Shown here piece after piece: positions 1 through 5,972 of a stretch of DNA of 23,331 bases. The notes beneath the pieces are model-generated. The model saw only the letters and a list, made by a program, of their open reading frames with translations. It was not told the origin of the DNA and made no database searches. Every line of letters begins with the position of its first letter. Positions within the stretch are counted from its first letter, which is position 1. Source of the DNA: a virus; IMG/VR virus record IMGVR_UViG_3300029787_000345, positions 1 to 23,331 of that record. One strand, written 5' to 3'. Made by a program: the position numbers and the translations under genes.

Positions 1-1219
1 CGAGCCGACCATCCTCGCGTCCGTAGTCCCAGTCCCTTGCCAACTTGGCTGACAACGCACGTTCCAGCTTGCGCCGCATGACGTTGACCTCGCCAGTCAT
101 AGCGGAAAGCTGGTTGTTGTACGCCTTGGCTGTCTTGGTTCTCAGCTTGCGAGAGAAGCGCGTCTTGCCAGTGCGGTGATGCCACTCGTCATTGGCTGTC
201 GTGTAAGGTCTGTAGCTACCATGCGTACCAGATGCACTCGATCTGGCCTCGGCGATTTCCTTGCGGACAATCGTGCCGACATCGAAGTTGTCATAGACAT
301 CCTCGAACTCACCGACACCAGTGACCTCATCGCTACCCTGTCGCTCACGACCACCTTCGCCACCGTCAAAGCTGTTTACTCCAGCTCCCCCGTGATCGTC
401 ACCTTCATCTCCGCTGGGTTTATCCCCATCACCTTCATCGCCTCGATCATCGCCAGAGCCAGCAGACGTTTCTTCCCCTCGCTCGTCGTCACCAGCACCA
501 CTTCCAGTTCCGTGTCTGACGTCATCGCCGTCGCCACTATCCCCTTTACAGCGGCCTCCTTCAGTCTCTTCCTCTTCTTCTGGCTCGTCGCGATAATCTC
601 CATCTCGTATCTCCTTCTCGACAATCTTGGCTAGGGTGATGACGTCTGCGGTGTCCTTGCATCCGTCCAATGAAGCAATCCACTTGGGCAACTGCCGCTG
701 GATGTCTTCGGGCAGCATGTCGATGCACTCTTGGCTCAGACCGCCGTAGTCCCTGCGGCCCTCCCATGTCAGTGCAACAGACGTGATGAACTTGTCATCG
801 CCCAGACGTGGATCGTCTGGCTTGATGCTGTTCAAGAACTCCTTGTTGACCGCAGTCGACACGGCCTTGAGGTTCTCGGCTGCACCTGGGTACTCGTCGA
901 TGACACGACGCTCCAGCCAGACGTCTTCCAATGCGTTGTGGACCCCGCGCAGCAGCTTGTTGTCACCGCACTCCTCCGCAAACTTCTTGAGCGCACGGAA
1001 GTCTGTGTGCCTGACATGCCCAGCTTCGTGGTCAACGTAACCGCGCATGATGTCTTGCTCTTTGTCACTCACGTCAGAGTTTTGATCCAACGTGGGCAGG
1101 ATGATGGTGGAGCCGTCAGTCGCGGCCCCATCACCTTGGAACACGACGTTGATGTCGTGCTTGCGCCCGAAGACGCTCGAAGTCTTGCCAATCTCGTGGC
1201 TGAAAAGATGTCCTTTCAT
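1..1219 (-). CDS. CobT-like protein with HExxH motif, partial (C-terminus beyond left edge)
   Basis: The open frame reads leftward from ATG at 1219 to the window edge (406 codons, no stop). The start is supported by GGGAG upstream and lies 10 nt after the CobS-like stop, so the two are probably co-transcribed. Residues 64-68 are HEAGH, an HExxH zinc-binding motif. About 27 residues later comes NALED (95-99), a pattern that supplies the third Glu ligand in gluzincins. Residues about 211-300 form a very acidic Gly/Asp/Glu-rich linker, as in CobT. The visible end, around residues 396-406 (WDYGREDGRL), resembles the CobT segment just before its von Willebrand factor A domain, so that domain probably lies beyond the edge. 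In bacteria CobT partners CobS in aerobic cobalt chelation; in phages the substrate is unknown. A protease or chaperone-like role with the AAA+ partner is possible. The family call is fairly sure; the function is not. Confidence 0.75.
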   Translation of the reverse strand, partial: MKGHLFSHEIGKTSSVFGRKHDINVVFQGDGAATDGSTIILPTLDQNSDVSDKEQDIMRGYVDHEAGHVRHTDFRALKKFAEECGDNKLLRGVHNALEDVWLERRVIDEYPGAAENLKAVSTAVNKEFLNSIKPDDPRLGDDKFITSVALTWEGRRDYGGLSQECIDMLPEDIQRQLPKWIASLDGCKDTADVITLAKIVEKEIRDGDYRDEPEEEEETEGGRCKGDSGDGDDVRHGTGSGAGDDERGEETSAGSGDDRGDEGDGDKPSGDEGDDHGGAGVNSFDGGEGGRERQGSDEVTGVGEFEDVYDNFDVGTIVRKEIAEARSSASGTHGSYRPYTTANDEWHHRTGKTRFSRKLRTKTAKAYNNQLSAMTGEVNVMRRKLERALSAKLARDWDYGREDGRL

Positions 1220-1229
1220 GTTCGTCTCC

Positions 1230-3098
1230 CTATTTCAGAACTCGGTTGCCGATGCCCTTGAGCACCGCTTTGTCTTGCGTGGTACACGCATTGAGAATTG
1301 TCATGTCGAACGCCATGTCGATTGCCTTGGTCTCGTCACCAACCATGTCTGTGAACGCCACAATCGCTTGGGCGAACGCCATGAAGTTGCGTGGCGAGAT
1401 AGGCTGCAAGACCTTGGCGTTCGTGAACGCTTCGAGATGCTCGGTGATGTACTTGCCCACCTTGTCAAGCGTGTCTGCCTTCAGCTTGTGCTGGCTCTCA
1501 ATCAGCTTGCGACGCTCGGTGGACGTCATGTATGGGACATGCACGAACGTCTTGAACCTGTTGAGAAATGCTTGCGATTGGACCCTCGCACCCTGATACA
1601 TTCCGAACTCATCGCCTTGGCCAACTGTGTTGGCTGTAGCGAAGGCACGGAACATCGGGTGTGGCTTGATGAGACGGCCACCGTCCTCTGTCAGCAACAG
1701 ACCGTTGCCCTCAAGAGCACGTTGCATCACATAGCTGACGTCAGCCCTGATGAAGTCGCACTCGTCAAAGCAAGCAATGCACGGCGTCTGCAACATCTGC
1801 GGCAGAATACCCTCAACGAACGTAGATGCAGTCGCACCGCCATCGTTCACGAGTGTGTCACGACCCAGCAAGTCAGCGCGGCTGATCTCGCTGTCGAAGT
1901 TGACACGCAAGAACGGAAAGCAAGTAAAGGCGGCAACCTGTTCGAGCAGGGTGGTCTTGCCACAGCCTGTGTGACCGTGAAGCCACTGCGGCTGGTTGGT
2001 AACGATGGAGTACAGAACCATCGTCAACTGGTCCTTGCGGAAGATGTAGCTGTCATCACGCGTTGGCACGAGAGGATGCGGTGCGTCCCACTCCCACACA
2101 GGTATCTTGAACTCCAAGCCCTTGCGCTTGATACCAGTGAAGCCAAAGACATCCGCCGCGACCTTGAGCCTGACCTTGCCAGACGGATACGCACCAGACG
2201 CAACCGCCGGAGCAGATGCAGACGCCATCATCGAAGCCTCGGCCTCGGCCTTGGCTTGCGCCTCGGCAATCTTCTCAGACGCGCCGTTGATCTCCTCGAT
2301 CAGCGTAGCAATCGGCGGCAGCTTGGCGTTCTTGAGAGCGAGGTCAATGAGCGAAGACTCCGCACCTGCTGGCACTGTGTACTTGGTTGCCGTAGGCTCT
2401 GCTTTCGGTTTTGGCGCGGCATCGTCGAACTGCAACTCGGTCATCGCGATGGCATTTTTGACACGCTCTGGCAACTCCGAGTACCGCGAAAGCTCAAACT
2501 CGGTGCGAAGATTGACCATGTTCTGAGCCGCATCACACTTGCCATTCCACTCTTCAATCGAGTGATATTTACGCATGGCTGAGAAAGCATCGTCCGAGGA
2601 TACCCCGCACCGCTCGACAACGTGGTCGTGTATGTCGATGATGTCCTGCAAGCCGAATGTCTCTGGCGCATAAGCAACGGTTGGCAAGAACTCGGCATCA
2701 CCCATGACGGCGGCGTTGTTGGCGGCCACCATCTCGGATGTGAGTTTGTTCGGACGCCCGAACGCATAGCCAGACTTGCTTGTGGGCGAGGCTGTGCCGT
2801 ATTCGTCAGGAGTTCTGATTGCCTGAATTACATCGCCGAACTTGATAGTGTCCATGCAAAGAGCCGTCAGCGTGTCGAGGTCGAGCGCATCACGAATGGC
2901 AGACCACGCTGGCCTGATCTTCATCTGGTTTGGCTCGTCACCGCAGATAGGTGAATGTTTGATTGCGGTTGCTAAATCGAAGGCTTTTGATGCCTTCTCC
3001 AGTATCGGCGAGACCAGCCTGCGAAGCTCGAATCGTGTTTCGCGATGGGTTCCGAGAGCGTATGCTTTTCGGAGGTCGTCTGTGGTTGGTTTATTCAT
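1230..3098 (-). CDS. cobS: CobS-like AAA+ ATPase
   Basis: 622-aa MoxR/CobS-class AAA+ ATPase. Walker A is GHTGCGKTT at residues 375-383, with K381. It is followed by the CobS-typical stretch FLRVNFDSEISRADLLGRD. Walker B is CIACFDE (D445, E446), and the sensor-1 region FRAFATANTVGQGDE matches the CobS pattern. Bacterial CobS is about 330 aa. Here the CobS core starts near residue 310 and is preceded by an extra region of about 300 residues ending in an Ala/Glu-rich segment (about 275-300), probably a linker or coiled coil. An in-frame TTG nine bases upstream (3107) is rejected because AAGGAG at 3109-3114 would leave it almost no spacing, whereas ATG 3098 has 10 nt. CobS hydrolyses ATP to drive a CobT-containing complex; many marine phages carry cobS, with unknown role. 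The CobT-like gene follows directly. Confidence 0.9.
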   Translation of the reverse strand: MNKPTTDDLRKAYALGTHRETRFELRRLVSPILEKASKAFDLATAIKHSPICGDEPNQMKIRPAWSAIRDALDLDTLTALCMDTIKFGDVIQAIRTPDEYGTASPTSKSGYAFGRPNKLTSEMVAANNAAVMGDAEFLPTVAYAPETFGLQDIIDIHDHVVERCGVSSDDAFSAMRKYHSIEEWNGKCDAAQNMVNLRTEFELSRYSELPERVKNAIAMTELQFDDAAPKPKAEPTATKYTVPAGAESSLIDLALKNAKLPPIATLIEEINGASEKIAEAQAKAEAEASMMASASAPAVASGAYPSGKVRLKVAADVFGFTGIKRKGLEFKIPVWEWDAPHPLVPTRDDSYIFRKDQLTMVLYSIVTNQPQWLHGHTGCGKTTLLEQVAAFTCFPFLRVNFDSEISRADLLGRDTLVNDGGATASTFVEGILPQMLQTPCIACFDECDFIRADVSYVMQRALEGNGLLLTEDGGRLIKPHPMFRAFATANTVGQGDEFGMYQGARVQSQAFLNRFKTFVHVPYMTSTERRKLIESQHKLKADTLDKVGKYITEHLEAFTNAKVLQPISPRNFMAFAQAIVAFTDMVGDETKAIDMAFDMTILNACTTQDKAVLKGIGNRVLK

Positions 3099-3230: not shown

Positions 3231-3262
3231 AAAAACGCCGCTGACGTTGCCGTCTGCGGCGT
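3231..3262 (-). terminator. Rho-independent terminator after the 65-aa gene
   Basis: On the minus strand ACGCCGC pairs with GCGGCGT. An inner GACG-GCAA-CGTC hairpin closes with a GNRA (GCAA) tetraloop after one A/A mismatch, and a T5 tract follows. It lies 22 nt after the stop of the 65-aa gene and upstream of the cobS promoter. Confidence 0.85.
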
Positions 3263-3284
3263 CTACGAACAGATTTTGTGTAGG

Positions 3285-4556: not shown

Positions 4557-4590
4557 AAAAAAACCCCCACAGGCTCGCGCCTGTGAGGGT
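4557..4590 (-). terminator. Strong Rho-independent terminator after the Ala/Lys-rich gene
   Basis: On the minus strand a 12-bp stem (ACCCTCACAGGC with GCCTGTGGGGGT, one G-U pair) closes a GCGA (GNRA) tetraloop and is followed by a T7 tract. It ends the 135-aa gene unit. Confidence 0.93.
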
Positions 4591-5447: not shown

Positions 5448-5972
5448 TTGGAAACGTCCAAAGGAAGAGTGGAAATAAAGTGCAAGGTCTGCGGAAAAAT
5501 CTTTGAAACCAAAAAGTTTCACGAAGAAAGACGCAGGTTTTGCTCCATGTCGTGCAGAAAAGCAGACAAACAGGTGAGAAACATGACAGCCATAGCCAAA
5601 AAAGCAGAAGAAACCAGACTAACCCCGCAGCAATCGTCACAGATACGCGGACAAATCGCCAATTACGTCACAGACCAGATCAATATGGCCCATGCCGTAG
5701 TCACTGGCTCCATAGAATGGAACCCAACGCAAGCTCGCGTCTTCGGGATGCTCCTGAACAAGGTAGTCCCAGACCTAAACGCCAGTTTCCACCAGCACGA
5801 GCACGAAGTTAAGCAGCTCACAGACTTATCGCGCTCCGAACTGGAGGCCATCGCCCAGGGCGTGGCCTCCATAGACGTCGAGTCCCAAGAAGACGAGGCA
5901 GAACAAGCCGGAAAGATGGCTTACGGCAACATCATCATCGAGGAGAACCCATCCTATGACAGTAACCAATAA
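5448..5972 (+). CDS. Putative terminase small subunit with N-terminal Cys4 motif
   Basis: 174 aa. The start is TTG at 5448 with GGAG seven bases upstream. It is preferred over later ATGs because it alone includes the full Cys4 motif: C12, C15 (CKVCGKIF) and C32, C36 (RRFCSMSCRK), a zinc-ribbon-like module. Residues 60-130 are helical (IRGQIANYVTDQINMAHAVV; WNPTQARVFGMLLNKVVPDL), then a segment rich in His/Glu and LTDLSRSELEAIA, and an acidic C-terminus. This layout, with the gene two positions upstream of the large terminase, fits a small terminase that recognises the packaging site in the adjacent intergenic DNA. Family assignment rests mainly on context; a zinc-binding DNA-recognition protein of another kind is possible. 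Confidence 0.55.
   Translation: METSKGRVEIKCKVCGKIFETKKFHEERRRFCSMSCRKADKQVRNMTAIAKKAEETRLTPQQSSQIRGQIANYVTDQINMAHAVVTGSIEWNPTQARVFGMLLNKVVPDLNASFHQHEHEVKQLTDLSRSELEAIAQGVASIDVESQEDEAEQAGKMAYGNIIIEENPSYDSNQ

Follow-up and report, generated by a model that had tools for sequence, protein, structure and literature searches.

A cobS-like and a cobT-like gene, adjacent to each other on a fragment of a marine phage, probably encode a machine that remodels proteins at the expense of ATP and carries its own metallopeptidase, and not a cobalt chelatase; this machine is likely to act early, on proteins of replication or recombination. The fragment, 23,331 bases from a virus record, is called the window hereafter. 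That the pair could be a protease or remodelling machine rather than a chelatase had been put forward in the initial annotation, and the proposal gains support from the predicted fold of the CobT-like protein, from the lack of CobN in 16 phage and virus records, and from the presence of a VWA domain with a MIDAS motif. The analysis shows the sequence motifs and how strictly they are conserved, a predicted fold, the absence of CobN from the phages, and the genes found next to the pair. As the HExxH motif is intact in the phage CobT-like protein and absent from the true B12 protein, a protein-cutting or remodelling machine is more likely than a vitamin enzyme.

From these observations we infer the following mechanism. 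The ring formed by the CobS-like ATPase, a member of the MoxR clade of AAA+ proteins, would engage the C-terminal VWA/MIDAS domain of its CobT-like partner. A target protein bound at the MIDAS would be delivered or unfolded with the energy of ATP hydrolysis. The target would then be cut by the N-terminal gluzincin-like domain, in which H64, H68, and E98 would serve as metal ligands and E65 as the catalytic base. The N-terminal extension of CobS, of approximately 300 residues, may select the substrates, which would likely belong to the DNA replication or recombination machinery of the phage or the host, and the pair would probably act early, at the replication stage.

The gene pair and its transcription

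The terminase, portal, tail fibre, and major capsid genes occupy the plus strand of the window, and the cobS-cobT pair is found on the minus strand, near but divergent from the terminase/portal/capsid block. No match to the whole window was found by megablast among phage records. An ORF with weak matches to HNH/homing endonucleases is present just upstream of the terminase gene (5448-5972). The CobS-like ORF (1230..3098, minus strand) starts with an ATG at 3098 and its stop codon ends at 1230, which yields a protein of 622 residues, or 625 if an upstream TTG is the start codon. The CobT-like ORF (2..1219, minus strand; PF06213, E 1.3e-15) starts with an ATG at 1219, 10 nt after cobS, and remains open to the edge of the window, such that its first 406 residues are available. 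The spacing, a HEAGH motif at residues 64-68, a NALED motif at residues 95-99, and an acidic linker were all found as initially described.

The acidic linker and the beginning of a helical region that precedes the VWA domain are encoded at 2..574 (minus strand), and the VWA domain itself is absent because the window ends inside cobT. It had been suggested to look for such a domain to the left of position 1, and it is indeed present in full-length relatives. In a 98% identical relative (L005), the CobT-like protein has 645 residues, with the acidic linker followed by a VWA domain at residues 420-632 that matches PF11775 (CobT_C, E 8.8e-31) and has an intact MIDAS, DLSGSM. The N-terminal CobT domain seen in the window, the acidic linker, and the VWA domain with its MIDAS in L005 thus identify a member of the CobT family, and an ATPase with intact Walker motifs that adjoins a MIDAS-containing VWA protein identifies a MoxR-clade AAA+/VWA pair.

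The CobS-like protein matches PF07728 (E 8e-13) and phrog_249 (E 1e-50), and its AAA+ core begins near residue 305, with the Walker A (GHTGCGKTT) and Walker B (ACFDE) motifs both intact. TIGR01650 is matched at residues 330-613 in the CobS protein of the 98% identical relative, and the solved CobS structure 9ujv covers profile positions 321-613 and no others. Because the AAA+ core starts only at approximately residue 305, the N-terminal extra region (residues 1 to ~300; 2199..3098, minus strand) that had been noted from the ORF alone is real. It is predicted to be mainly helical, with two small strands, in an AlphaFold model of middling confidence (pLDDT 79.6, pTM 0.47), and no significant fold match was found for it in the PDB using Foldseek. 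Alignments indicate that the extension is lineage-specific, being common to the podophages that resemble the Roseobacter phage CRP-810, in which it is conserved, and weakly shared with cobavirus-like phages. CobS proteins of the podophage-type group are 518-739 residues long, compared with approximately 313-380 residues for canonical CobS and 350-443 for those of cyanophages and phage-plasmids. A role in binding or selecting substrates is a guess. A weak PADLOC match of the ATPase core to IetA was not taken as a sign of defence. A CobS-like gene is found near nearly all cobT loci for which enough flanking sequence is available.

A strong intrinsic-terminator-like hairpin with a U tail (3231..3264, minus strand; -22 kcal/mol, z -4.7) was detected by pattern scan and RNA folding between the preceding gene and cobS, and it is consistent with a separate transcription unit for the pair. 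A second strong hairpin, which resembles a terminator and has a T run, lies on the minus strand at 4563-4590, near the point at which the gene blocks diverge. The pair had also been credited with a promoter of its own and with being alone in its unit. Neither claim was borne out: no sigma-70-like site was found upstream of cobS on the minus strand, and cobT is followed by short same-strand ORFs in L005 (from ~8113) and by ten same-strand genes in CRP-810.

The HExxH site and the predicted fold of the CobT-like protein

Relatives were gathered from podophages, cyanophages, SSU5-type phage-plasmids, annotated phages and plasmids, and one Roseobacteraceae genome. When 44 N-terminal domains of podophages, cyanophages, and phage-plasmids, with 16-94% identity to that of the window, were aligned, the only invariant residues were H64, E65, H68, N95, E98, D99, E103, and G112. 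They include both histidines and the glutamate of HEAGH (1016..1030, minus strand) and, within NALED (923..937, minus strand), E98, the proposed third metal ligand. A chance occurrence of HExxH was rejected, given that the motif does not vary among the 44 domains even where identity falls to 16%. In a separate check of 77 loci, taken from two more viral scans plus one genome scan, 76 have HExxH and EDxxxE; the exception stops at a contig edge, so that the motifs are found in 76 of the 76 loci with a complete N-terminus. HExxH is also present in the copies carried by an ICE and by IncC and other conjugative plasmids. A conserved HExxH with a downstream glutamate, as found in both the 44 sequences and the 76 loci, is the sequence signature of gluzincins.

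The motif has been lost from the proteins of the Stenotrophomonas phage BUCTxx99 and of the Acinetobacter plasmid ZW85p2, both of which keep their CobS neighbour; thus, peptidase activity is not always needed. These copies (L008 1742-3727 and L176 5918-7840) have RE..T and QE..K forms of the site and retain the equivalent of E98, and they represent natural inactive controls. All 95 proteins in the alignment, canonical CobT among them, retain an equivalent of E98.

The N-terminal domain (residues 1-215; 575..1219, minus strand) was modelled by AlphaFold with high scores (pLDDT 91.9, pTM 0.88). HExxH is predicted to lie on a helix spanning residues 52-71, followed by two short strands and by a helix spanning residues 88-109 that harbors E98. 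The model places the two helices next to each other, which is compatible with the formation of a metal site by H64, H68, and E98, whose failure to form one had been named as an argument against a protease. Plain Foldseek searches of the PDB gave no significant match for this domain. After re-alignment of the Foldseek candidates with VIA-align, ranks 1-19 were all occupied by gluzincin-type metallopeptidases, with Z scores of 5.4 to 4.2, the best of which is below the caution line of Z = 8. Among the top matches were the M48 proteins 3c37 and ZMPSTE24, M1 aminopeptidases and LTA4 hydrolase, M4 enzymes, and the minigluzincins selecase, abylysin, and jannalysin (Z 4.4-4.7). Each score is modest, and it is the consistency of the matches that suggests a gluzincin-like fold. 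The alignment of the predicted fold covers most of the minigluzincin domain, and the best match is to an M48 enzyme (Z 5.4), with modest Z scores and no detectable sequence similarity. To our knowledge, neither the minigluzincins nor the M48 enzymes work with a VWA or AAA+ partner. Among viral models, Foldseek retrieved this fold from tailed viruses of haloarchaea and from Gordonia phages. Two profile matches were set aside, a weak one to PF18818 (zincin-like MPTase-PolyVal) in three members only, and one to AcrIIA26 (9zq6, E 5e-4) that spans approximately 70 residues without HExxH and is probably due to chance.

Canonical CobT is homologous to phage CobT over nearly its entire length (E 2.7e-72 with profile A2), and the CobS-CobT part of the aerobic cobaltochelatase (9uka and others) shares the AAA+ plus VWA/MIDAS architecture and the acidic linker. 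In contrast with the phage proteins, canonical CobT lacks HExxH, canonical CobS lacks the extension of approximately 300 residues, and the two work with CobN, which was not found in the phages. HExxH is absent from 36 of the 36 canonical alphaproteobacterial CobT proteins in our tree (e.g., DAYALRLAHHD) and from the solved canonical CobT 9uka (GDSMALRQARH), all of which keep the E98 equivalent. In the tree, which was built from the C-terminal part of CobT alone so as to exclude the motif, the canonical CobT proteins group in a single clade that SH-aLRT fully supports, and two changes suffice to explain the distribution of HExxH. Since this tree is unrooted and has several long branches, loss of HExxH in the canonical line appears likelier but is not proven. 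We tentatively consider it possible that phage and plasmid CobST are widespread metalloproteases driven by an AAA+ motor, with replication or recombination complexes as their targets, and that the CobT of the cobaltochelatase descends from such a protease and became a pseudo-protease, its zinc site having been lost on recruitment to B12 synthesis. In a literature search of partial coverage, no paper was found that describes canonical CobT as a degenerate form, and nothing relevant turned up on CobT and zincins or on a VWA-linked protease in phage CobT.

CobN, vitamin B12, and the hosts

A cobN homologue elsewhere in the phage genome had been designated as another observation that would contradict the protease reading. 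A search of 16 phage and virus records, among them that of L005 and seven complete genomes including CRP-810, gave no match to CobN (PF02514), and a cobaltochelatase complete within the phage was therefore rejected. In L005, the CobT-like and CobS-like proteins score far under the NCBIfam equivalog cut-offs (145 vs 759 bits for TIGR01651 and 165 vs 559 bits for TIGR01650, respectively). Thus, with no CobN encoded alongside in those records and with equivalog cut-offs that are not reached, the pair departs from an aerobic cobaltochelatase.

The phage subunits might instead work with the CobN protein of the host to increase cobalt insertion and thereby the supply of B12 to B12-dependent enzymes of host or phage, such as class II ribonucleotide reductase, as has been proposed (PMC8651126). 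The clear homology to CobS and CobT speaks for this idea, as do the occurrence of CobN in many Alphaproteobacteria and the presence of a ribonucleotide reductase large-chain match in cobavirus-like relatives; such a match is also found in SSU5-type relatives. The host of the phage, if it is a relative of Roseobacter, could have CobN. Nevertheless, the low equivalog scores, together with the retention in the phage form of an HExxH motif that is absent from all canonical CobT proteins examined, make this explanation unlikely. It also fits poorly with the carriage of the pair by phages of E. coli (Cyrano) and Klebsiella, with HExxH read in the E. coli phage: PF02514 has no match in an E. coli control genome. 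As far as we know, neither E. coli nor Klebsiella uses the CobNST route. Moreover, no match to the large chain of ribonucleotide reductase was found in CRP-810 and five records of similar size. CRP-810 gp49 (L003 4213-4371) is annotated as 'ribonucleotide reductase A subunit', but this label is doubtful, as the protein has only ~52 residues and the CRP-810 genome has no Pfam match to the large chain.

A survey of 192 alphaproteobacterial genomes (G010-G201) identified canonical CobT in 154 of them; 83 of those 154 genomes have no confident CobN, and in 74 of the 83 CobN gave no match of any kind. The Caulobacter control similarly has CobT without CobN. Cellular CobST may thus have roles beyond cobalt insertion.

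Neighbouring genes and related systems

In T5S1, the pair adjoins genes for a DNA polymerase and a primase/helicase. It is found beside DNA polymerase III alpha in some relatives and beside the sliding clamp and clamp loader in others, and near ssb, RecT/Bet, and an exonuclease, or near ssb alone, in further ones. In CRP-810, it belongs to a block opposite the virion genes, with no replication gene directly beside cobST. Four loci on conjugative plasmids and an ICE (L012, L175, L178, and L179) all encode a MoxR/AAA ATPase and an HExxH-VWA protein; a DUF3150 gene adjoins in three of the four, and ssb, RecT/Bet, or an exonuclease is nearby in three. No mention of DUF3150 was found in the literature searched.

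These locations bear on a second alternative, in which the pair would be a MoxR/VWA chaperone with a peptidase that processes structural proteins in virion assembly. Such a role was proposed for the jumbo phages of group 2.2, in which the MoxR-VWA pair of the Acidianus two-tailed virus served as the analogy (PMC7824862), and in the window the terminase, portal, and capsid genes lie near the pair, although the two blocks diverge. In most annotated relatives, however, the pair resides in a replication/recombination region and not among virion genes, and it is also carried by conjugative plasmids and an ICE, which renders a function in assembly quite improbable. That HExxH holds a structural or sensing metal in a non-proteolytic remodeller is very improbable, since E65, which a merely structural metal would not need, is as invariant as both histidines, even if two mobile relatives and all canonical CobT proteins examined persist without the motif.

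A remodelling machine with a built-in peptidase thus accounts best for the pair, and similar systems are found in other phages. The closest complete phage, Roseobacter phage CRP-810 (OR671924, 57.7 kb), encodes the same pair in the same order (gp06/gp07), with a CobS protein of 617 residues that has the long extension and a CobT protein that is 54% identical and contains HEAGH and NALED. It has a similar terminase-portal-fibre-capsid order and is about half identical to the window; its proteins are annotated as cobaltochelatase CobS and CobT, with no mention of the peptidase site. The 'peptidase' and CobS of T4-like cyanophages and pelagiphages are more distant, with approximately 16-23% identity in the N-terminal domain, and other genes may separate the two. 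They have HEVGH, the acidic ED motif, a VWA domain, and the CobS neighbour, and the protein of cyanophage S-CAM9 was detected by the family profile. The jumbo-phage pair, likened here by description only, has the same set of domains, a MoxR ATPase and a VWA protein with an N-terminal metallopeptidase, but no link to CobST was drawn (PMC7824862).

Earlier work reports that cobST is widespread in tailed viruses; the name 'peptidase' used in cyanophages was called a mistake and a hijacking of host CobN was proposed (PMC8651126). The evidence presented here favours the peptidase reading over that verdict. The idea of a MoxR/VWA-metallopeptidase pair is itself partly known, having been independently proposed for jumbo phages in 2021 with a role in virion assembly (PMC7824862); the present analysis widens it to podophages, phage-plasmids, and ICEs and connects it with CobT. 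Within the N-terminal domain of phage CobT, no part is more conserved than the peptidase site, and the true B12 subunit is devoid of it. If the proposed function is correct, virus surveys mis-assign cobST to cofactor synthesis, and a core gene pair of cyanophages would gain a testable function as an ATP-driven protease.
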